From an uncultured Subdoligranulum sp. (lineage in GTDB: Bacteria > Bacillota_A > Clostridia > Oscillospirales > Ruminococcaceae), in NCBI RefSeq assembly GCF_937890665.1, contig NZ_CALADU010000266.1, positions 1 through 11,339 on the forward strand: a stretch of 11,339 nucleotides of DNA, read 5' to 3'. Shown piece by piece: positions 2,506 to 10,804 of this stretch. Position numbers and translations under genes: made by a program. Every line of letters begins with the position of its first letter. The first letter of the stretch is position 1. The notes beneath the pieces were generated by a model. It saw only the letters and a program-made list of their open reading frames with translations, had not been told where the DNA came from and made no database searches.

Positions 2506-3873
2506 TTATTTTTTCTGGCCTTCTTTTATCGCCTTGGCAATTTTTCGTTTATGATGCTTTATTAAGGCATTTGCTTCCTGATCGTTGAGCTTCAATATTC
2601 CTTTTGCCTTTCTTGCATAATCAATAAACGTTTGTTTTTCATCATTACGAGAATAAATACTATATAGTTCTTTTGCTGATATATGCCTGCCTTTAGATGA
2701 TATCCAATTACTGCGTCCAATGGTATGAGCTTTTCGACGCATTCTATAATAATATTTTGTTATTGCGCGTGGCCTTAGTCTAATGTTTTTGCCATCAAAT
2801 AGAAATCCTAAGTAGTTTATGCTAGATGGCTGGTCACCCTCGTAGACTACTTTGTTCTTATAAGTATAGCAAGAAGTCTTTTCCTTTTGTAGGTCAATAA
2901 GTCCTTTCATTGATTCTACATAGGAAAAAATGTAACTTGTAAAATCCGCAATTTCGGAATCTCTCTCGTATGGCAAGACAATGATAAAATCATCTGAATA
3001 GCGCATATAAATTCCGCCTTTGCTGGCTACATAACGCTTAATGTCTTTATCAAACTCTATCATGTAAATGTTGGATAGTACAGCGCTAATGGGGGAACCT
3101 TGCGGAACGCCAACCCCAGAAACATTCTTTTTTATATCATTTTTGCTTTTCTGAAATTGTTCCTTAGTCAGTACTGTATCTTTACTATTGATCTTTTTAC
3201 GAACACCTTTTTCTTCAATGTTTTCGCCAGCCGCCTTTACAATGTCTTTCCAATCCCAACTTGAAAAACGGGTGATATTTTTGAAAACAGAAAAGTAATC
3301 TTGAGGCAAGCGCTCAACACCAAGTACTTCGCACATCATTTTCTTGAGATATTGATGTTCCAAATTGTCGAAGAAATTAGTAAAATCACCTACTAAAATG
3401 AAGCACTGGGGAAAGCTGCGTATTGCATCAAAAGCATCCTTGGCAAAATCAATATTGTTTTTTCCTAAGTTATCTCGATATGCAATTGCAACGTCATCTA
3501 TGTTATTTTCACAAGCCCAACTATTATACTGGCAGTTTAATAAAAATGCATATCGCTGATATACACACCTATCTAAATGTGAGCAGTAATATAGCTCTCG
3601 TGGTTTTTTAGGTCCTTTCTTTCCATAACGAGAGTTTTTCTTCTCAAAGTGGATAAATGGATAAAAACTGTGCGTAACTATTTTTGCCCGATCCATTACG
3701 TATTTTCTAATAGAAGGCATGGCTAAAGACACACGCAGGTCAAAATGTGCATAAGGTTTAGTATCATTGTGGTGTTTAACAAAGTCAACCCATGCTTGGC
3801 ACATCTGGTTTGAGCTACAATTATGACAAGATATAGGTCGTTGACATTGATTGTATTCTTTTTGAGTTTTCAT
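2506..3873 (-). CDS. drt2: reverse transcriptase of a DRT2-like (UG2-type) antiphage retroelement
   Basis: The 455-residue protein is a retron/Abi-like RNA-dependent DNA polymerase. Visible motifs: motif A VGDFTNFFDN with Asp163; motif B GVPQGSPISAVLSNIYM (255-271); catalytic YSDD (292-295); and the thumb-side INYLGFLFDG (352-361). The N-terminal region has YAHFDLRVS (41-49) and RELYYCSHLDRCVYQRYAFLL (92-112), as seen in defence-type (UG) reverse transcriptases rather than group II intron proteins. No maturase, endonuclease, nitrilase or other fused domain is present. An N-terminal cysteine cluster (C10, C16, C19, C25) could bind zinc. The ATG at 3873 has a strong ribosome site (gggggag, 3881-3887). 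A structured ncRNA with its own promoter lies directly upstream, and its template encodes a concatemer-type frame, the design known for DRT2. That context, more than the protein itself, is the basis of the DRT2 call; other UG classes remain possible. The gene is more AT-rich than its neighbours. Confidence 0.8.
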   Translation of the reverse strand: MKTQKEYNQCQRPISCHNCSSNQMCQAWVDFVKHHNDTKPYAHFDLRVSLAMPSIRKYVMDRAKIVTHSFYPFIHFEKKNSRYGKKGPKKPRELYYCSHLDRCVYQRYAFLLNCQYNSWACENNIDDVAIAYRDNLGKNNIDFAKDAFDAIRSFPQCFILVGDFTNFFDNLEHQYLKKMMCEVLGVERLPQDYFSVFKNITRFSSWDWKDIVKAAGENIEEKGVRKKINSKDTVLTKEQFQKSKNDIKKNVSGVGVPQGSPISAVLSNIYMIEFDKDIKRYVASKGGIYMRYSDDFIIVLPYERDSEIADFTSYIFSYVESMKGLIDLQKEKTSCYTYKNKVVYEGDQPSSINYLGFLFDGKNIRLRPRAITKYYYRMRRKAHTIGRSNWISSKGRHISAKELYSIYSRNDEKQTFIDYARKAKGILKLNDQEANALIKHHKRKIAKAIKEGQKK

Positions 3874-3898
3874 AATTCTCCCCCCTAAAATGCATCAT

Positions 3899-3938
3899 GC
3901 CTGCTAACATGGGGGACAACATCCCTAAGTTAGCAGGC
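3899..3938 (-). repeat. 3' hairpin of the ncRNA
   Basis: A perfect 10-bp stem (gcctgctaac and its complement) with a 20-base loop that can pair further (ggg with ccc). It lies 26 bases from the start codon of the reverse transcriptase. On the minus strand no clear T-run follows, so it looks like a structural element of the ncRNA and not a terminator. Confidence 0.7.
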
Positions 3939-3986
3939 AGGTACATGAACATTATTGTCCTGGGTGCATCTGATAGCGTTCCGTAG

Positions 3987-3992
3987 TATAAT
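3987..3992 (+). promoter_or_regulatory. -10 half of a promoter assembled only in concatemeric cDNA
   Basis: A perfect TATAAT with no usable -35 at 16-18 bp upstream in the linear sequence. The matching TTGACA is about 95 bases downstream, at 4087. In a 123-nt repeat the spacer would be 17 bp; in the 120-nt repeat suggested by the tccg repeats it would be 14 bp, or 17 bp to the alternative hexamer AATCAT. The start codon is 19 bases further on. Confidence 0.6.
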
Positions 3993-4032
3993 CATACTGG
4001 AAAGGAGTATCATGTTCAACGAACCCAACCTA

Positions 4033-4078
4033 GAATTGGTGGTTCTATGTGTAACGTTACTCATAGAAACATCAATTC
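4033..4078 (-). repeat. long internal hairpin of the ncRNA template
   Basis: Left arm 4033-4049 and right arm 4062-4078 pair at 15 of 17 positions, with a 12-base loop that holds the palindrome gtaacgttac (4051-4060). The polymerase would have to copy through this stem. The same bases encode the first helix of the predicted repeat protein, so they are constrained twice. Confidence 0.75.
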
Positions 4079-4086
4079 GGCCAGAC

Positions 4087-4092
4087 TTGACA
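4087..4092 (+). promoter_or_regulatory. -35 half of a promoter assembled only in concatemeric cDNA
   Basis: A perfect TTGACA close to the end of the template, 11 bases before the presumed repeat end at 4103 and next to the 5' hairpin. In the linear genome no TATAAT-like hexamer follows at a proper distance on this strand. It becomes meaningful when the start of another template copy is joined behind it. Confidence 0.6.
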
Positions 4093-4104
4093 GAAATGCT
4101 CCGC

Positions 4105-4126
4105 CCTTACAGCCAAACGTGTAAGG
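4105..4126 (-). repeat. 5' hairpin of the ncRNA, bordering the template
   Basis: A 7-bp stem (ccttaca and its complement) with an 8-base loop, starting right at the predicted 5' end of the RNA. Its base is one nucleotide from the presumed template end at 4103, so it is placed to stop the polymerase and force a jump back. Confidence 0.65.
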
Positions 4127-4133
4127 TAATGTT

Positions 4134-4162
4134 ATTTTATACCAAAGCACGCTTAAAGTCAA
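4134..4162 (-). promoter_or_regulatory. promoter of the ncRNA and reverse transcriptase
   Basis: On the minus strand TTGACT (4157-4162), a 17-bp spacer and TAAAAT (4134-4139): five of six bases match the consensus in each box. Initiation is expected near 4127, which is the start of the first hairpin. Confidence 0.75.
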
Positions 4163-4234
4163 ACCATTCTACGCATTTCAAGCCTCATTTACAATGGTAA
4201 GAATGGTAAGCTATTTCCAGCTATCCAACCACGC

Positions 4235-4265
4235 CAGAAAGGCTCGGTAACATCGGGCTTTTCTG
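4235..4265 (+). terminator. intrinsic-terminator-like hairpin
   Basis: Twelve pairs form between cagaaaggctcg (4235-4246) and cgggcttttctg (4254-4265), two of them G-U in a plus-strand RNA. In a minus-strand RNA those two become mismatches, so the plus direction is favoured; the right arm carries TTTT. It separates the defence cassette from the transposon genes. No plus-strand gene upstream is evident apart from the cDNA-strand frame. Confidence 0.5.
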
Positions 4266-4305
4266 TCCTCTAAATGCGTAGATACAAACACCATAATAGC
4301 AGCGG

Positions 4306-4346: not shown

Positions 4347-4419
4347 AGCAAAGACGGAGGAAGCCGTCAAGGGCGCGGAGCGTTTATCTCGACCCTTGGC
4401 AGCTTCCTTTGTCTTTGCT
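4347..4419. repeat. 27-bp imperfect inverted repeat reaching the stop codon of the HTH gene
   Basis: Arms 4347-4373 and 4393-4419, with a 19-base loop, pair at 23 positions. In a plus-strand RNA three of the four other positions are G-U pairs, leaving one mismatch; in a minus-strand RNA three of the four are mismatches. The right arm overlaps the stop codon of the gene at 4418-4654. It may stop or stabilise transcripts; no T-run marks it as a classical terminator. Confidence 0.65.
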
Positions 4420-4654
4420 ATTTCCTGTTTACAATGGCTTCTACCAGTTTTGCCTGCAACCGATGTTTCATGTGTTCATCCACACGCACATGAGGCGTTC
4501 CGTCCAGCTCATAGAGTGTCCGGGTACACAACTTGTTTATGTAGCCGTCATAGTACCGCAAGACGCGCTCTATTGCCAGCGGATCACCAGCACGGGCCTC
4601 CACAAAAACTGACAGGGGCAGAAGTACCCTGCCGTGGAATGTGGGTTGCTTCAT
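4418..4654 (-). CDS. helix-turn-helix protein of conjugative transposons (HTH_16 / Tn916 Orf8-like)
   Basis: A 78-residue protein beginning MKQPTFHGRVLLPLSVFVEA, with 'ARAGDPLAIERVLRYYDGYINKL' and 'HVRVDEHMKHRLQAKLVEAI'. This is the pattern of the small 'helix-turn-helix conjugative transposon-like' family that accompanies a sigma-like factor in Tn916-type elements. The start at 4654 is chosen because its ATG overlaps the TGA of the sigma gene (ATGA) and is preceded by ggagggagg; the frame upstream is open but has no ribosome site. Translation is therefore coupled to the sigma gene. Likely role: regulation of element transfer genes, by family only. Confidence 0.8.
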   Translation of the reverse strand: MKQPTFHGRVLLPLSVFVEARAGDPLAIERVLRYYDGYINKLCTRTLYELDGTPHVRVDEHMKHRLQAKLVEAIVNRK

Positions 4655-5091
4655 TTCGCGTTCCTCCCTCCCGGCATTAACGCCATCAATTTCACGCGCA
4701 ACTGTTTCAGGGTGCTTGTCCTGTGGCGCTGGACGGCGCTGCGGGACATTCCCACAAAGCCGCCAATCTCGCCGTCGGCCAATTCCAGCACACAATGCAG
4801 AATTAGAATCTTCTGTTCCTGCTCTGGCAAGGTGGCAAAGGCCCCGGCCACCAGCTCATCCCGAATATGTAGGTCATAGCCAAAGGCGGAGAATGTAAAG
4901 CTGTTGCTGGGGTATTCGTCCAGCGTACAGAGTTTATCCATTTCTGCCTGCGGCAAGGTGTCCAGTGGCTTTTCCCGGTCGCGGCGGCGGGCCAGCTCGG
5001 ACAGATATTTTTGGGCCTCGTTGCGTAAAACCGTTTTACAGAAAGCATCCAGCCGGTTTCGTTCCACATAGTCAAAGGTGTATTCGTTCAT
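4651..5091 (-). CDS. small sigma-70-like factor of a mobile element (Tn916 Orf7-like)
   Basis: The 146-residue protein has a C-terminal region-4-like helix-turn-helix, about residues 87-135: LPEQEQKILILHCVLELADG, then EIGGFVGMSRSAVQRHRTST. The N-terminal part (YVERNRLDAFCKTVLRNEAQ) resembles the 'Y..rnkfD.FCK..LrnEa' start of transposon sigma-like regulators. The ATG at 5091 has a strong ribosome site (ggggggcgag). It overlaps the next gene by four bases. In Tn916-type elements the equivalent protein activates conjugation or excision genes. No conjugation genes are in the window, so its targets here are unknown. Confidence 0.85.
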   Translation of the reverse strand: MNEYTFDYVERNRLDAFCKTVLRNEAQKYLSELARRRDREKPLDTLPQAEMDKLCTLDEYPSNSFTFSAFGYDLHIRDELVAGAFATLPEQEQKILILHCVLELADGEIGGFVGMSRSAVQRHRTSTLKQLRVKLMALMPGGRNAK

Positions 5092-5135
5092 TTTCTCGCC
5101 CCCCGATCTGCGGGAGAGTGAGAAGATAAAGCTGA

Positions 5136-5492
5136 TTATTCCACTCCTTTCACCGGCAGCAATATGGCGGCCCCGGCCCGCACCGGGAAACCGCAGAAAA
5201 CAACAATTTTCGCCCGGCAGGTCATAGACCCACCGGGCGAAAAGAAAGGCGATATGCAGTTGATTTGCATGGTATAGTTCATACTCATGACCGCGTGTTC
5301 CCGTTGCTGGGGACGGGCTTTTTTAACGGTACATACCCCGTCGTATTCTGTCGAAACGCTCTTTGCTTCATGGCGGCTCCCTCCGTGGGCCGCCGATCGC
5401 TCCAGCGCCAGTATAAGGGCATAAAGAATGGCGGCCTTGATTTTGTCAAAGCCGCCGTAGTGTATTAGACGCAGGGGAAAAGACTGCTGCAT
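5136..5492 (-). CDS. hypothetical protein between ABC permease and sigma gene
   Basis: An open frame of 118 residues from ATG 5492; in-frame TTG 5525, just after the permease stop, is an alternative start. Codon choice (third-position G/C) resembles the neighbours. Content: a start MQQSFPLRLIHYGGFDKIKA, a possible helix AAILYALILALERSA, a basic middle, and a Cys-containing end. No known domain is recognised. There is no convincing Shine-Dalgarno and the start lies in the hairpin at 5491-5518, so the frame may be only partly or not translated. Alternative: a shorter gene starting at one of the internal ATGs near 5289. Confidence 0.35.
   Translation of the reverse strand: MQQSFPLRLIHYGGFDKIKAAILYALILALERSAAHGGSRHEAKSVSTEYDGVCTVKKARPQQREHAVMSMNYTMQINCISPFFSPGGSMTCRAKIVVFCGFPVRAGAAILLPVKGVE
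5207..5243. repeat. 11-bp inverted repeat
   Basis: ttttcgcccgg (5207-5217) and its exact complement (5233-5243). The 15-base loop can pair again (ggtc with gacc). No T-run follows on either strand beyond the stem. It lies about 115 bases ahead of the sigma gene start and could control its message. Confidence 0.6.
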
Positions 5493-5518
5493 GACGGCTT
5501 TTTTTCTTTTGCCGTCAT
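5491..5518. repeat. 8-bp hairpin with T-rich loop after the ABC permease
   Basis: atgacggc (5491-5498) and gccgtcat (5511-5518) with a 12-base loop, T-rich on the plus strand and A-rich on the minus strand. It starts 11 bases beyond the permease stop codon on the minus strand. It may mark the end of the transporter operon, but there is no terminal T-run. Confidence 0.5.
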
Positions 5519-5528
5519 CCGGCAACCG

Positions 5529-6284
5529 TTAGTTTTCAATTTTTTTCTTGTGGGAAAAGGCAATCAATCCAACCAGAAACATCACGATAAAGCAAAGTAC
5601 AATGCTGATACATCCGCCAATGGTGGCCGGTACATGGGCTTCATAGTAAGTAGATTTATCTGAGAAGAACATGGACACGCGATATGCGAAGCTGCCCGGA
5701 ATGAGAAAACCACTTTCTGAACCGATGAACAGGCAGGATGCAAAGCCATATATCATCCCGACAACGCTTGTTACAATGATATTGCGGCTCAGATTGATAA
5801 CGATCGCCCCTAAACAGGTAGTTATCAAAACGACAACGCCAGCTTCAATTCCAAACCCGATTGCCAGATTAAGGAACAGAGAAAGACCGCCGGGCAACCT
5901 GCCAGCTCCATTGAGTACCGCCACAAGCAGGCCAAAAGCGATAAATAAGACGGCCGCGAAGCCGATGCCGATAACGATGCTGACAGCGACTTTCGATAGA
6001 AAGAGCTTCTTCTTTGAAAAACCGTAGGTGATCCAGTTGATGTAAGTTTTGTTCTTGTATTCCTGATAAAACAGCGAACCAATCAAAATGAAGATCACCA
6101 TTGGGAAGAACATGGAAAACTGGTTATTCATAAAGAAGAACAGGTCAGCAAGTGATTTTGTGCTGTCGTTGAAAACTGCTCCTGCGCCGCCGGTAAGGAT
6201 GGGAAGAAGCGACAACAGCAGAAGAAATACCATAAACCATTCCCGCTTCAACTTGTAAAATTTGTTTTTGATCAACATTCCCAT
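5529..6284 (-). CDS. ABC-2 family permease, probably antimicrobial peptide export/immunity (BcrB/LanE-G-like)
   Basis: A 251-residue membrane protein with about six hydrophobic segments. It begins MGMLIKNKFYKLKREWFMVF and has the typical 'FYQEYKNKTYINWITYGFSKKKLFLSK' cytoplasmic loop (about 73-99) seen in bacitracin and lantibiotic self-protection permeases. The ATG overlaps the stop of the ATPase gene by one base (TAATG), so the two are translationally coupled and form one transporter. The substrate is not shown; peptide antibiotic export is inferred from the family and from the two-component control. Confidence 0.82.
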   Translation of the reverse strand: MGMLIKNKFYKLKREWFMVFLLLLSLLPILTGGAGAVFNDSTKSLADLFFFMNNQFSMFFPMVIFILIGSLFYQEYKNKTYINWITYGFSKKKLFLSKVAVSIVIGIGFAAVLFIAFGLLVAVLNGAGRLPGGLSLFLNLAIGFGIEAGVVVLITTCLGAIVINLSRNIIVTSVVGMIYGFASCLFIGSESGFLIPGSFAYRVSMFFSDKSTYYEAHVPATIGGCISIVLCFIVMFLVGLIAFSHKKKIEN

Positions 6285-6973
6285 TATGCTTCCTCCCTCT
6301 GGCCGGAAGTCATAATATTCTCGTACAGTGCTTCCAGTTCTTTTTCGTTATAATCGTTTTCTGCAATCTTGATGATTTTTCCGCCGCGGATGAAAATAAG
6401 AACATCCGTTACGGCGGCGATCTCCGTCAGATTATGGCTCGATACCAAAATACAGTGTTGGGGAGATTTCAGGCGTTCTTTCAGAAGCAGCCGTATCTCC
6501 TTTATCCCCATCGGATCAAGGCCATTGGTAGGTTCGTCCAGCAGCAAATATTGGACATTGCCTAAAAAAGCGCGGGCAATTCCCAGCCGTTGGCGCATCC
6601 CCAAAGAAAGTTGAGAGAACAGCTTTTTCCGGGCATCCAGCAGGTTTACTTGTTTGAGCGCCGCTTCGATGTTTGGCCGTTTCAGACCTAAATACTGCGC
6701 GTGGAGCTTCAAATTTTCCTCTACGGTAAGCCGGGGGTAAAAAGCCGGGTATTCGATCAAACTTCCAAAACATCTGCTGGAAACGGGCTGCCCATCCGAG
6801 AGAATTTCTCCCGAAAAGGCGGTCAGGCCCAGCATGGACTTAAACAGCGTTGTTTTGCCGGCCCCGTTCGGCCCCAGAACACCATAGATTTTTCCTTGCT
6901 CTAAAGTCAGGTTGATGTTGGACAGCAATGCGGTATTTCCAACATTCAGATTTACATTTTTGATTTGCAGCAT
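6284..6973 (-). CDS. ABC transporter ATP-binding protein (BcrA/lantibiotic-immunity type)
   Basis: The 229-residue ATPase has intact motifs: Walker A GPNGAGKTT (34-42), signature LSLGM (122-126), Walker B YLLLDEP with Glu147, and H-loop His180 in VSSHNL. The sequence 'SLIEYPAFYPRLTVEENL' is typical of the BcrA-like group. The ATG at 6973 has a good ribosome site (ggagg) and follows the 57-aa membrane peptide gene by 12 bases. Partner: the permease at 5529-6284. Unlike the other ATPase in the island it looks fully catalytic. Confidence 0.9.
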   Translation of the reverse strand: MLQIKNVNLNVGNTALLSNINLTLEQGKIYGVLGPNGAGKTTLFKSMLGLTAFSGEILSDGQPVSSRCFGSLIEYPAFYPRLTVEENLKLHAQYLGLKRPNIEAALKQVNLLDARKKLFSQLSLGMRQRLGIARAFLGNVQYLLLDEPTNGLDPMGIKEIRLLLKERLKSPQHCILVSSHNLTEIAAVTDVLIFIRGGKIIKIAENDYNEKELEALYENIMTSGQREEA

Positions 6974-6985
6974 GAAATTCCTCCG

Positions 6986-7159
6986 TTATTGAAAGAAGAT
7001 GAAAAGCATAAAGGTCACAGCGTAAATCAAAAATGAGGTTCCGATGGGTTTTGATCTCTGTTTTAACCCTTTTAGGCCATCGCTCAATATGCCATGCAAG
7101 GCCATGAGCAGGCACACCGCCAAAGCGATGAGTGAAATTGCTAAAGCTACCTTAACCAT
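6986..7159 (-). CDS. 57-aa membrane peptide heading the ABC transporter operon
   Basis: The ATG at 7159 is preceded by a perfect AGGAGGT (7167-7173) with a 7-base gap, and the frame stops at TAA 6986-6988, 12 bases before the ATPase gene. The product has two hydrophobic segments, about residues 3-25 (VKVALAISLIALAVCLLMAL) and 42-57 (SFLIYAVTFMLFIFFQ), joined by a basic loop KGLKQRSKP. No family is recognised. First in an operon with its own regulated promoter, it is probably a small subunit or regulator of the transporter. Confidence 0.75.
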   Translation of the reverse strand: MVKVALAISLIALAVCLLMALHGILSDGLKGLKQRSKPIGTSFLIYAVTFMLFIFFQ

Positions 7160-7182
7160 TGTTTGTACCTCCTATGGCTCAT

Positions 7183-7241
7183 ACTGTACCAAAGAGGTTT
7201 AGGATTTGTTTGAGAAAAGTCTAAGGAAAGTCTAAGGATGA
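7183..7241 (-). promoter_or_regulatory. response-regulator-dependent promoter P1 with four 11-bp operator repeats
   Basis: The -10 box is TACAGT (7183-7188, minus strand) and the -35 position is poor (AAACAA). Next to it, on the plus strand, four units of exactly 11 bp start at 7198, 7209, 7220 and 7231: TTTAGGATTTG, TTTGAGAAAAG, TCTAAGGAAAG, TCTAAGGATGA. Tandem sites with one helical turn period are the usual target of OmpR-family dimers, and one is encoded nearby. P1 would drive the small membrane peptide and the transporter at 5529-6973, with a leader of under 20 bases. Confidence 0.65.
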
Positions 7242-7264
7242 AAAAAGAGCTGCCGAAGCAGCCC
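7241..7264 (-). terminator. intrinsic terminator of the histidine kinase operon
   Basis: On the minus strand gggctgc-TTCG-gcagctc, a 7-bp stem (one G-U pair) capped by a UUCG tetraloop, followed by six T (7241-7246). It starts 1 base past the stop codon of the kinase and separates that operon from P1. Confidence 0.9.
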
Positions 7265-7265
7265 T

Positions 7266-8168
7266 TTAGAAATTGATGATGGGAAACACGATTTGAATTG
7301 CAAAGATGCCGTTTTGCAGAGATGCCGAGATTTGCCCGCCCATGCGGGTCACAAGTCTTTGCGCGATCGCCAGCCCCAGCCCTGTTGTCTTTTTTGTCCG
7401 TGACTGGTCGGTGGTATAAAAACGGTCAAACAAATGGGGAACATCTTCCTGCTGAATACTGCTCGACGCATTTTTAACGGTTATGACCGTTTGCGCTTTC
7501 TCGGTTGCTGCGGTGATCTGATAATTTCCCTTCCCGTGAACAAGCGCATTATAAACCACATTTGAGAAGATCCGGGTCAAGGCATCTGGATCGGCCCAAA
7601 TGACAGCCGGTGAATTGGGGATAACGATATGAGGGACGCATTTTTTCTGTTCAAAATCGCCGTAGTATGAGGCGACAACGTCCCGAAGTACACTGTGTAT
7701 ATCCGTATTCCTGCAATTCAATTTCAGCTCGTCGGCTTCGATCCTTGCAAATTCAAACAGTTGGTCGAGAAGCAGCTTTACAGCGGAAATTCGTTCTCCT
7801 GCAATCATCACATATTCTTTTTGCTCCCCGGTCAACTCCTGTTCCTGTAAAAGCTGAATATAGCCGTTTGCTGTTGCCAGCGGCGTTCGCAAGTCATGGG
7901 ACAGACTGGTGATCGTATCCCGGAACAGGGTATCGCTCCGTTCGATTTCCTGCCTCATACCGCGATATTTTTTGAGAAGATGATTGATACTTGCAGCCAA
8001 ATCCTGTATGGGCCCATCCGTTTTTTCCACCATGATTTCTGTTTGCGTATCCCGTTCTATTAAAAAATCAATCTGCCTTATGATTTTCCGAACCAGCTTC
8101 CGCTGATAAATCAGTTTCAGAAGCAAAAACAGGGAAAGCATTGCCAGCAAGATACATAACACGATCAT
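7266..8168 (-). CDS. sensor histidine kinase of the island's two-component system
   Basis: A 300-residue kinase with one N-terminal membrane helix (2-20), a short linker, and a HisKA domain with the H-box SLSHDLRTPLATANGYIQLL (phosphorylated His91). The HATPase domain has N-box NVVYNALVHG (203-212), F-box LFDRFY and G2 box GLGLA (263-267). The usual DxGxG G1 box is replaced by VKNASSSI (231-238), as in some small Firmicutes kinases. There is no outside sensor loop, so it may sense through the membrane or through the transporter beside it. The ATG at 8168 follows the permease stop by 7 bases. It should phosphorylate the regulator at 9899-10591. Confidence 0.9.
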   Translation of the reverse strand: MIVLCILLAMLSLFLLLKLIYQRKLVRKIIRQIDFLIERDTQTEIMVEKTDGPIQDLAASINHLLKKYRGMRQEIERSDTLFRDTITSLSHDLRTPLATANGYIQLLQEQELTGEQKEYVMIAGERISAVKLLLDQLFEFARIEADELKLNCRNTDIHSVLRDVVASYYGDFEQKKCVPHIVIPNSPAVIWADPDALTRIFSNVVYNALVHGKGNYQITAATEKAQTVITVKNASSSIQQEDVPHLFDRFYTTDQSRTKKTTGLGLAIAQRLVTRMGGQISASLQNGIFAIQIVFPIINF

Positions 8169-8175
8169 GCGGCCA

Positions 8176-8940
8176 TCACCGCCTTTCCAAACCGCGCAAA
8201 TCCATCCTTTGAAACAAGGAGAACGAAACGGCTGTCGGTAAAAATAAATATACTACCAGCGTAATCAAAATGGGCATTAAATTCTCCCCAAAGGTATGGA
8301 TCTGCAAGCTATGGGAAAGCCCTACTACCCAATACTTGTAGAGCGAATAATCCATATCCAATGCTGTGCTTATCTTTGTGAGGTATAGATACAAAACCCC
8401 CAGCAGAAAAAATGCGGCAATCGTGACAATGATCCGATGCCTGAGCAGGTAACTTAGCAGATTGAGAAATGCAGTGTACCCTAAAAAGCACAGGCATTGA
8501 AGCAGAAGAAAGGCTCCGATTGCAGAAAACGAATATTCAAGGCTATACCGGGATGTTCCCATGATCAGAATAGACAAATACGCAACGCCGAAGCATACAA
8601 GCAGAAAAAATAAAACACCACCCCATGCGGCCAGCAGTTTACCGAAGAATAGATGTACTCTGCTTGTGCCTTTAGAAAGTGCGATACTGTATGTGCCGGT
8701 ATGAAAATCTTCTGTAAAGTACAGGCACAAAAAAAGCGTCAACGGAAAAATCAGGCTGTAATCTGAAAATAGAAACTCCGTGAACGAAACCAGAGATATA
8801 GCCGGAAGCATAGCATCTACCGAATTATGATAAAATGTCAGGGCAAGCGCAAAGACAAAAAAAGCGGCCAGTGCGAGGCAGGCCCAAAACAGGCGGTTTT
8901 TGCGGATACGGAATAACTCACTTTGCATCGTCTGGATCAC
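8176..8940 (-). CDS. ABC-2 type permease, partner of the divergent ATPase
   Basis: A 254-residue membrane protein with six predicted hydrophobic segments and the soluble motif YFTEDFHTGTYSIALSKGTS after the second segment, typical of ABC-2 permeases of the antimicrobial-peptide type. Start chosen: GTG at 8940, 8 bases after GGAGG (8949-8953). A GTG at 8949 overlaps that ribosome site and an ATG at 8928 is further off. It overlaps the ATPase gene by about 23 bases, so translation is coupled. It forms a second transporter of the island. Confidence 0.85.
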   Translation of the reverse strand: MIQTMQSELFRIRKNRLFWACLALAAFFVFALALTFYHNSVDAMLPAISLVSFTEFLFSDYSLIFPLTLFLCLYFTEDFHTGTYSIALSKGTSRVHLFFGKLLAAWGGVLFFLLVCFGVAYLSILIMGTSRYSLEYSFSAIGAFLLLQCLCFLGYTAFLNLLSYLLRHRIIVTIAAFFLLGVLYLYLTKISTALDMDYSLYKYWVVGLSHSLQIHTFGENLMPILITLVVYLFLPTAVSFSLFQRMDLRGLERR

Positions 8941-9826
8941 GCTTTGCACCTCCTGTCATTTTCAAAAGATAGTCGGTCGGCTCCATACCGGCAAGCCAGA
9001 TTTCCGATACCTCTATCCCGGAACGAACCAGCAGCGTATTGATTTCCCCGGATCGCTCATTGCAATCAAAAATTCTGATCAGGTCGCGGCCCAACACTTC
9101 AAAATCCGGGAATTGCTGGCTTAAAATCGTGATAGCCTGTTCTAATTGTGGGGTTCTTATCTTTATGCACCGCTGGCAGTTCTCTGTCAATTCCTCAGCC
9201 GTAAGTTCACAAAGTAACTTGCCATCTGCCATCACGCCATATTGGGATGCAAGCCGGGCAAGCAGCGTATAATCCGGTCCAGAGATTAGAAGCGTGGTAT
9301 GGTTCATTTCATGCAGATAGGTCAGAACAGAAAGCAGGCGTTCGCATTCTCCTTTGTCCAGCCCGGAAAAAGGGTCGTCCAGGATTATCATGTCTGGATT
9401 TCCCAAAAGGGCAACCGCCAAATTCACGAAACGCTGGGTCGATAAGGGCAATCGCCGTACCGGCTTTTTTTCTTTCAGGTCCAGATGCAATACATCTAAA
9501 AAATGGCTTTCTGTGCTTCCGAAAGCAGAAGCAAAATAGTGCAGCATATCAGACGGTGACAGAGAGCCGATTGTCACAGGCTTTTGGGGTACAAATCCAA
9601 TCCGGCGGCGCTCCTGCTGATAGTCCATATTGCCAAATAATTTGAGCGTACCAGCTTGAGGTCTCAGTGTACCTATAATAGCCTGCAACAGTACGGATTT
9701 TCCGGCGTGATGGCCGCCGTATAGAACATAGATCTCTCCGCGTTTTACCTGAAATGTGATATTTTTAATCCCGTTTCCGTCCGGGAAAACATAGGTCAAC
9801 CCGGCTGTTTCCAAAGCAGCCTCCAA
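8918..9826 (-). CDS. ABC transporter ATP-binding protein with degenerate catalytic motifs
   Basis: A 302-residue protein, longer than the usual 230 because of a C-terminal extension of about 85 residues. Walker A is GGHHAGKSV (37-45, the lysine is kept). The signature is LPLSTQR instead of LSGGQ (126-132). Walker B is MIILDDP, with Asp151 in place of the catalytic Glu. The H-loop histidine is missing (LLISGPDY). Hydrolysis may be weak, or it may act as a regulatory or sensing unit, as proposed for some transporter-kinase systems. No in-frame ATG exists near the start; TTG at 9826 follows AAAGGGG by 8 bases and is used. It heads the operon ATPase-permease-kinase. Confidence 0.8.
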   Translation of the reverse strand: MEAALETAGLTYVFPDGNGIKNITFQVKRGEIYVLYGGHHAGKSVLLQAIIGTLRPQAGTLKLFGNMDYQQERRRIGFVPQKPVTIGSLSPSDMLHYFASAFGSTESHFLDVLHLDLKEKKPVRRLPLSTQRFVNLAVALLGNPDMIILDDPFSGLDKGECERLLSVLTYLHEMNHTTLLISGPDYTLLARLASQYGVMADGKLLCELTAEELTENCQRCIKIRTPQLEQAITILSQQFPDFEVLGRDLIRIFDCNERSGEINTLLVRSGIEVSEIWLAGMEPTDYLLKMTGGAKRDPDDAK

Positions 9827-9853
9827 ATCATCATCCCCTTTCCATACCGTCTT

Positions 9854-9901
9854 ATTGTAGCAGATCGGCGTGCAAACTTTATAAGATTTCTCTAAGGATT
9901 A
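9854..9901 (-). promoter_or_regulatory. response-regulator-dependent promoter P2 with two 11-bp operator repeats
   Basis: The -10 box is TACAAT (9854-9859, minus strand); the -35 position is poor. Two 11-bp units on the plus strand start at 9880 (TATAAGATTTC) and 9891 (TCTAAGGATTA). They lie 21 and 32 bases from the -10 box, exactly the distances found at P1 (7209 and 7220). The second unit overlaps the stop codon of the response regulator. P2 would drive ATPase, permease and kinase, so the system would control its own sensor. Confidence 0.65.
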
Positions 9902-10591
9902 TCCCTGCATTTTGAAACCGAGGCCCCAAACCGTCTGAATATACTTTTCCTCTGGATTGACTTTGGCAAACTTCTTGCGGAGATTTCCAATGTGGACATT
10001 GATTGCGTTATCGTCCCCGATAAAGTTTTCATTCCACACGCTTTCAAAGATATTATTCTTTGTGAATACCTTTGAGGGTGCGGACATCAAAAGCTGCAAG
10101 ATCAGGTATTCATACCGTGTCAAAGCAATGGGGGTATTCCCGATTTTGGCCGCCATCGCTTCTGTATCAAGGGACAAGTCCTTAAAATGAAGCATCTTGC
10201 CATGATGAGGGCCGGTGGATTTTTGAAAGCGCCGCAGCACCGCTTCAATCCGAACCAGCAGCTCTTGATTGTCGAATGGCTTTGTGATGTAATCATCTGC
10301 GCCGTTTCGTATGAGGTTCACTTTGCTGTCTATATCCGTTTTAGCGGACACGCCGATGATCGGAATATCCATCGCGCTTTTTATCTTCTCCAATACTGTT
10401 TCTCCCGGTATGCCGGGCAGCATCAAATCAAGTAAAATTAAGTCAAAAGTGCCTTTCTCCATCAACAGAAGTGCCTCACTCCCCGAGTAGGCAGAAGTTA
10501 CAAAATAACCGTGTTGTGTGAGAAGTCGCTTTGTCATGTCGTTGAGCGGCACGTCATCTTCTATAATTAAAATGTCAGCTTTGTTTTTCAT
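9899..10591 (-). CDS. OmpR/PhoB-family response regulator
   Basis: A 230-residue regulator. The receiver domain (about 6-120) has acidic Glu11-Asp12-Asp13, phosphoacceptor Asp55 in LILLDLMLPG, switch Ser82 and Lys104 in ITKPF. The winged-helix domain (about 135-228) ends IQTVWGLGFKMQG. The ATG at 10591 is chosen because AGGAGA lies 7 bases before it; the ATG at 10609 has no such site. It overlaps the preceding HTH gene by 17 bases. It should receive phosphate from the kinase at 7266-8168 and bind the 11-bp repeats at P1 and P2. Confidence 0.93.
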   Translation of the reverse strand: MKNKADILIIEDDVPLNDMTKRLLTQHGYFVTSAYSGSEALLLMEKGTFDLILLDLMLPGIPGETVLEKIKSAMDIPIIGVSAKTDIDSKVNLIRNGADDYITKPFDNQELLVRIEAVLRRFQKSTGPHHGKMLHFKDLSLDTEAMAAKIGNTPIALTRYEYLILQLLMSAPSKVFTKNNIFESVWNENFIGDDNAINVHIGNLRKKFAKVNPEEKYIQTVWGLGFKMQG

Positions 10592-10754
10592 CTTTCGTTC
10601 TCCTGTCATGCGGTTTCTCTGCGTCTTTGGGTATCAACCAGATTGTCGCCATCTTCACCGCGCCGGGAATACGGCCGCCGGTGCAATAATAGTTTACCCG
10701 CCGAGGGGTTACGCACCATTTTTCGCTGGCCTCTTTGACTGTCATATAATCCAT
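10575..10754 (-). CDS. excisionase-like helix-turn-helix protein
   Basis: A 59-residue protein, MDYMTVKEASEKW followed by CVTPRRVNYYCTGGRIPGAV. This is the winged HTH_17/MerR-like fold used by excisionases and small regulators: 'v.Eaaek..vs.rrV.....gripGA.K....w.IP'. The ATG at 10754 has ggaggt (10761-10766) 6 bases before it, and a promoter just upstream. Its end overlaps the response regulator start by 17 bases. It could be a directionality factor for the serine recombinase or a repressor of the divergent region; sequence alone cannot decide. Confidence 0.8.
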   Translation of the reverse strand: MDYMTVKEASEKWCVTPRRVNYYCTGGRIPGAVKMATIWLIPKDAEKPHDRRTKDEKQS

Positions 10755-10775
10755 GTCCGCACCTCCAATAATGTC

Positions 10776-10804
10776 ATTATAGTTCTTACACAAGAATGAT
10801 ACAA
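10776..10804 (-). promoter_or_regulatory. promoter of the HTH-response regulator operon
   Basis: On the minus strand TTGTAT (10799-10804), a 17-bp spacer and a perfect TATAAT (10776-10781), 21 bases before the ATG. There is a good -10 and a moderate -35, so expression may be constitutive, unlike P1 and P2. Confidence 0.75.

Follow-up and report, generated by a model that had tools for sequence, protein, structure and literature searches.

We propose that the window, by which we mean the whole stretch of 11,339 nucleotides analysed here, carries a DRT2 system whose reverse transcriptase (RT) probably copies the template at 3975-4097 head to tail, so that a promoter spanning the joint between copies would drive an endless frame of 41 codons per repeat, the Neo frame. 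This is the best explanation of what was computed here, namely the family of the RT, the anatomy of the RNA, the order of the motifs, and the conservation of phase and frame. In the case of the trigger, the jumping, second-strand synthesis, translation and toxicity we infer the events from Klebsiella DRT2. The working promoter and the repetitive gene are likely not carried as such by the chromosome, being assembled by copying. DRT2 and Neo are themselves already known from the main texts of PMC12039810 and PMC11100668.

The RT gene and its N-terminal extension are as follows.

2506-3873, minus strand: DRT2 reverse transcriptase gene, 455 aa, with a YSDD active site (PADLOC, NCBIfam, solved Drt2 chain)
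3799-3846, minus strand: N-terminal Cys4 extension, RT residues 10-25, with C10, C16, C19 and C25 (C-x5-C-x2-C-x5-C before the RT domain)

By profile and chain comparison the window RT is a DRT2 (UG2) reverse transcriptase, as the sequence-only reading had inferred. The NCBIfam model NF041746 (Drt2) gives 393.1 bits against a cutoff of 390, a narrow margin, and the PADLOC Drt2 models give 445.2 and 292.4 bits, with 73.9 for the next best family, 64.1 for Drt9 and 62.5 for UG17 (DRT10). The solved chains 9lje_A (222.1 bits) and 9c0i_A (221.9 bits, named Drt2), both of which we take to be the Klebsiella DRT2 enzyme, align to it from residue 39 on only. The catalytic YSDD is intact, and D163 and D294/D295 are invariant in a four-sequence alignment (A1).

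The plus strand, which is the cDNA strand, has a frame open from 3949 to 4197, after a TGA at 3946-3948, and an ORF at 3955-4200 including its stop. The elements in and around this frame are listed here; the 69 loci referred to are relatives (window included) selected for at most one mismatch over both hexamers, which bears on the counts of exact matches.

4087-4092, plus strand: -35 element TTGACA of the predicted joint-spanning promoter, exact in 67 of the 69 selected loci
3987-3992, plus strand: -10 element TATAAT of the same predicted promoter, exact in 49 of the 69 selected loci
4001-4007, plus strand: Shine-Dalgarno sequence AAAGGAG, with an SD-like motif in 55 of the 69 loci
4012-4014, plus strand: ATG, likely the start codon of Neo, 19 nt downstream of the -10 element
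3975-4097, plus strand: predicted cDNA repeat unit of 123 nt or 41 codons, template on the minus strand (spacer-17 rule, handle ruler, open frame)
4096-4097, plus strand: AT at the template end, of which the copy AT at 3973-3974 would re-anneal at the jump (2-nt match at the ruler)
3978-3982, plus strand: possible primer-binding site (RNA GGAAC), by analogy with Klebsiella (main text of PMC12039810) and from its position relative to the spacer

The -10 element (3987) comes before the -35 element (4087). Every motif named by the sequence-only reading lies where it had been placed, including the copies of tccg at 3980-3983 and 4100-4103, 120 nt apart, and its statement that joining at 120 nt leaves this frame open and puts stops into the other two was confirmed by computation on the joined unit.

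That reading also took the promoter and the stop-free frame to exist only in a concatemer, and looked to homologues for conservation of phase, TTGACA and TATAAT. Scanned with a four-sequence alignment, genome contigs yielded 176 relatives, 80 of which were taken, and viral contigs 3; in the latter, a scan with a single protein and one with an ncRNA pattern each found no relative. Phage, plasmid and E. coli records, together with genome searches, supplied more loci, to a total of 109, from which 3 with too short an upstream region and 12 duplicates were dropped, as were L097 and L098 (by subtraction), with no RT match at threshold. The set is 93 distinct upstream regions including that of the window, and L110-L112 stand outside this count. 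A search of 11 genomes of the genus of L006 gave only L006's own genome, and a search of plasmid DNA with 3700-4300 gave one record, matching 4167-4300 only.

A region was taken to qualify if it had a 5' hairpin before the -35 element, and TTGACA and TATAAT with at most one of the 12 bases off. By this rule 69 of the 93 qualify, with both hexamers perfect in 47. The permuted anatomy is not chance, because only 4 of 279 dinucleotide shuffles qualify and none of the four is in phase. When the regions are joined at a 17-bp spacer the unit is a multiple of three in 62 of the 69, and all 62 in-phase units have a frame that runs stop-free through the joint, as against an average fraction of 0.21 (0.225 for the window) when the interior of the unit is shuffled. 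The 62 reduce to 48 non-redundant units at 85% identity. Thus the phase is kept in the relatives as the sequence-only reading had proposed and, judged by these regions, the permuted gene is a trait of the DRT2 family.

Seven of the 69 break the phase rule with the automatically chosen pair of hexamers (L054, L055, L057, L060, L065, L069 and L090). In five of them (L054, L055, L057, L060 and L065) another -10 gives a 17-bp, in-frame and stop-free unit; these are not counted, as the search for alternatives, made in ten loci, used phase and open frame as its criteria and is hence post hoc. In L050, L055, L057 and L058 the best TATAAT gives a unit that is one base off, and with TATACT as the -10 element, again a post hoc choice, the spacer becomes 17 bp, the unit is a multiple of three and 4-6 bases match. 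The 24 regions that fail the rule include six loci with a short template, which are discussed below.

A single rule, by which copying ends at the 8th base past the handle, the promoter spacer is 17 bp and the unit length is divisible by three, would thus recover a hidden Neo in 62 of the 69 loci to which it could be applied, of which many belong to Firmicutes to judge by their record titles. Annotation does not see a gene that comes into being only by reverse transcription, and the preprint PMC11100668, in its main text, describes Neo as harder to annotate in divergent clades and suggests alternative mechanisms.

By computation, the RNA upstream of the RT gene has the anatomy of a DRT2 ncRNA, with a 5' handle, template, pseudoknot and 3' hairpin.

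3880-4131, minus strand: putative DRT2 ncRNA, ends approximate (fold energy, covarying scaffold)
4134-4162, minus strand: likely ncRNA promoter, TTGACT at 4157-4162 and TAAAAT at 4134-4139 with 17 bp between
4105-4126, minus strand: 5' handle hairpin CCTTACACGTTTGGCTGTAAGG (fixed distance from the joint in relatives, sub-threshold RT-6 match)
3914-3919, minus strand: pseudoknot 3' strand UUGUCC, whose partner is GGACAA at 3955-3960 (all six pairs formed in each of ten sequences)
3898-3939, minus strand: 3' hairpin ('tower'), 3898-3908 with 3929-3939 (99.1% of cells paired)
3890-3969, minus strand: closing pair, AUGCA at 3965-3969 with UGCAU at 3890-3894 (5 invariant pairs)

With an energy of -83 kcal/mol, the fold of 3885-4138 lies at z -4.97 relative to 200 shuffles. 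The 22 pairs of the scaffold are formed in 99.5% of cells over ten sequences of the clade, as against 25-49% in slid controls, and 4 pairs are changed on both sides, three of them in the 3' hairpin and one, a compensatory change, in the pseudoknot. The closing pair is to be seen as conserved and not as covarying, because its five pairs are invariant. Three of five measures (cells paired, cells changed on both sides, and covariation score) are above all 500 shuffles, and two are not, with 11 of 500 shuffles as high for pairs changed on both sides and 406 of 500 for further pair types. The ten-sequence count leaves out L013, in which an insert is misaligned, and L005, which has a short flank; in L013 the letters GGGCAA and TTGCCC would pair.

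Two Rfam families touch on this RNA. Of 20 loci tested, 13 (L017-L020, L022, L024, L025, L031, L032, L038, L041, L046 and L053) have an RT-6 (RF03027) match over the 5' handle, ruler and -35 element of their DRT2 ncRNA, and RT-12 (RF03016) matches the 3' part in E. coli locus L109 (752-888). Since the matches fall on the handle/-35 part and on the 3' part, RT-6 and RT-12 are, on this evidence, fragments of DRT2 RNAs. The window scores 25.2 bits against RT-6 at 4072-4128, below the gathering score of 46.7, and the other clade loci tested (L006, L008, L009, L013 and L099) have no match at gathering. We found no description of RT-6 or RT-12 as DRT2 RNA in the literature searched, including the main texts of PMC12039810 and PMC11100668, the supplements of which may have the point.

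The position of the joint was approached by looking for bases shared by the two ends of the template. Over 79 loci the mean longest shared run is 3.42 at a spacer of 17 bp and 1.47-2.35 at 13-16 and 18-22; spacer 17 is best in 46 (first of ties counted), and a run of at least 3 is found in 55 at spacer 17, 30 at spacer 20 and 27 at spacer 22. Spacer 17 gives a run of at least 3 together with a unit length divisible by three in 54 loci; in 36 of these copying would stop at the 8th base past the handle, and in 9 at the 7th. With this ruler fixed, at least 2 bases match at spacer 17 in 56 of 69 loci and at least 3 in 48, compared with 10 and 3 at spacer 14; spacers 20 and 22 give a run of 3 or more in 1 locus each. 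As a positive control, the E. coli Drt2 loci L108 and L109 give TGT (ACA in RNA) at the ruler. The main texts give a 17-bp promoter spacer across the joint (PMC12039810) and an ACA joint (PMC11100668) for Klebsiella DRT2; TGT is at the joint in only 3 of the 54 informative loci.

In the window the ruler leads to 4097, where AT faces AT at 3973-3974, giving a 123-nt unit and a 17-bp spacer. The AT match at the ruler is also found in L006 and L008, and L099 has a 4-nt match; the handle of L013 was called 3 nt short automatically, and its score at the ruler was 0. With the promoter hexamers as anchor, the open units of the window and its four close relatives with neo are 123, 126, 123, 162 and 129 nt. 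Over about two units the three frames have 2, 0 and 12 stops at 123 nt, and 2, 0 and 10 at 120 nt. A spacer of 22 was also considered and rejected: it gives 2 matching bases at the ruler in the window, but the frame is broken. ACA-1 and ACA-2 are absent from the template ends of the window, both of which have AU at the ruler, and because of this we file the window as DRT2 and not in the Klebsiella-type subgroup.

The sequence-only reading had placed the joint at the tccg repeats, with the same mechanism and a unit of 120 nt (3984-4103) or 40 residues. This is the alternative that survives best, though we consider it unlikely. The match is of 4 bases, as against 2 at the predicted 123-nt joint, TCC is kept at the same register in L006, L008 and L013, and 120 nt also leaves one frame open. 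However the tccg joint puts only 14 bp between the -35 and -10 elements, and synthesis would have to end at the 2nd or 3rd base after the handle, not the 8th, in the window, L006 and L008. In L099, which belongs to the clade of the window, TCC is missing from that register and ATACT is present at spacer 17, and at the ruler a spacer of 14 gives 0 matching bases in the window, L006, L008 and L099, and 1 in L013. The lower tccg copy is overlapped by the candidate primer-binding site at 3978-3982. Because the tccg joint is off the ruler and has a 14-bp spacer, the 120-nt unit was rejected as first choice, and we predict a joint at 4097/3975 with a 123-nt unit and two matching bases. The joined peptide then changes from ...LTEMLRSIIILERS... 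to ...LTEIAFRSIIILERS....

With the 123-nt unit, the predicted repeat is IIILERSIMFNEPNLELVVLCVTLLIETSIRPDLTEIAFRS, of 41 aa. Those of L006, L008, L013 and L099 would be 42, 41, 54 and 43 aa, with the joint reading LTEI in all four, and among 44 units in that phase LT is found in 43, followed by T or E in 37 and then by I or M in 40. The sequence-only reading expected a helical repeat, and the model of a single unit indeed has two helices, at residues 2-15 and 17-37 (mean pLDDT 71.2, pTM 0.37), built from an alignment of 31 single contiguous units in which the window part was 3976-4095. This is in line with the helical Neo models in the main text of PMC11100668, with a confidence that is modest.

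Differences at the three codon positions number 6077, 5584 and 7108 over 667 overlapping pairs, a weak excess at the third position, and between the window and L006 they are 4, 2 and 1, with no such excess. Since third positions vary only slightly more than the others, coding is supported by the frame and the absence of stops, and not by substitutions. The weak third-position signal is what one might expect if the concatemer acted as DNA and the open frame were an untranslated by-product, and a nested clade (below) has kept the RT and scaffold but has neither a promoter nor a frame in common. We nevertheless regard this as very unlikely, as it does not sit well with a stop-free frame in every in-phase unit or with -35, -10 and Shine-Dalgarno elements kept across unit lengths of 111-168 nt. 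That 3955-4200 is an ordinary short plus-strand gene expressed from the chromosome is hardly credible and was ruled out, for although it has an open frame with a Shine-Dalgarno sequence and ATG, its promoter elements are in the wrong order, it has no Pfam match, it lies in the template of a structured RNA that is conserved, and its stop is outside the conserved unit.

For the head-to-tail copying that we prefer, the course of events would be as follows. Phage infection would trigger the complex of RT and ncRNA, and cDNA synthesis would stop at 4097, the 8th base counted from the 5' handle. The free end of the cDNA would re-anneal 123 nt back (3973-3974) and copying would restart, giving a concatemeric cDNA that would become double-stranded. 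In this duplex the TTGACA from one copy would lie 17 bp from the TATAAT of the following copy, forming a promoter, and the transcript would be translated from AAAGGAG and ATG into repeats of IIILERSIMFNEPNLELVVLCVTLLIETSIRPDLTEIAFRS, a helical repeat protein that would likely arrest the cell.

The window resembles the Klebsiella pneumoniae DRT2/Neo system, as the main texts of PMC12039810 and PMC11100668 present it, in having a DRT2 RT, an ncRNA with handle, template, pseudoknot and 3' hairpin, permuted TTGACA and TATAAT with a 17-bp spacer (predicted for the window), a Shine-Dalgarno sequence and start codon, a unit that is a multiple of three with one stop-free frame, and a predicted helical repeat. 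It differs in that its RT is distant and has the Cys4 N-terminal extension, it has its own Neo sequence, and the unit is predicted to be of 123 and not 120 nt, with an AT overlap of 2 nt and not ACA. RNA-templated repetitive cDNA as an anti-phage output is shared with DRT9 (PMC12483538) and DRT10 (PMC12632851), as these sources describe them in part; in the same excerpts no coding role is reported for the DRT9 cDNA, unlike Neo.

The Cys4 motif is found in 12 of the 93 loci: the window, L006, L008, L013, L099, L011 and the six short-template loci (L009, L010, L012, L014, L015 and L016). In a tree of 31 chosen RTs, which L008 and L099 entered without their N-termini, these twelve form one clade (100/100) and the motif is found only there. 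By motif and tree this is a new 12-member clade characterised by a Cys4 extension, which may bind metal, and with an overlap of only 2 nt at the predicted joint.

The RTs of the short-template loci are 61-62% identical to that of the window and keep YSDD, and the loci keep the handle, pseudoknot and 3' hairpin. The distance from handle to AUGCA is 52-67 nt in the six, and in the close trio L009, L014 and L012 it is 64, 65 and 66 nt, that is, with single-base steps in length. None of the six has TTGACA/TATAAT, the best pair in the joined units missing 3-5 of 12 bases, and at most 4 of the 6 are in frame under any of 169 fixed joint rules. The lowest-energy folds have two template hairpins in L009, L012, L014 and L016, less clearly in L010, and L015 differs. 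The six and L011 form one clade (100/100), and these nested seven sit with the window, L006, L008 and L099 in an 11-member clade (97/97), outside which L013, which has Neo, branches; the exact sister group of the seven is weakly supported (80/58). The simplest reading is that the nested lineage is a DRT2 that has apparently lost Neo. Among the papers listed for DRT2, titles and the openings of abstracts gave no report of a DRT2 without Neo; the supplements of PMC12039810 and PMC11100668 may have one. In the case of L011 no DRT2-like ncRNA was seen by eye within 480 bases upstream of the RT (upstream of 3001), a motif scan gave a single hit on the other strand, and the RT frame is open for 574 codons.

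We tentatively suggest that the DRT2 RNA may be a chassis with an exchangeable template, that the short non-coding hairpin template of the nested lineage may give a structural or regulatory DNA array, and that Cys4 may help to handle this DNA. The nested clade poses a testable question, that of the role of the DRT2 enzyme when its product is no gene.

With regard to the setting of the locus, the sequence-only reading had placed it on a mobile element of Firmicutes. RTs 83-95% identical to that of the window are found, among the matches listed, in Anaerostipes butyraticus, an uncultured Eisenbergiella and a Christensenella MAG, and mobile-looking genes of the HTH_16 and sigma-70 region-4-like types adjoin, which agrees with that placement. 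A pair of this kind is typical of conjugative transposons. The minus-strand genes of the downstream neighbourhood, at 4418-10793, also include ABC transporters of lantibiotic-immunity type and a VanRS-like two-component pair and, among the matches listed, only HTH_16 is above its family cutoff. The whole looks like the cargo of a mobile element. In addition, L100 and L107 have a broken copy of the RT, which contains internal stops and shares about 80% identity with that of the window.
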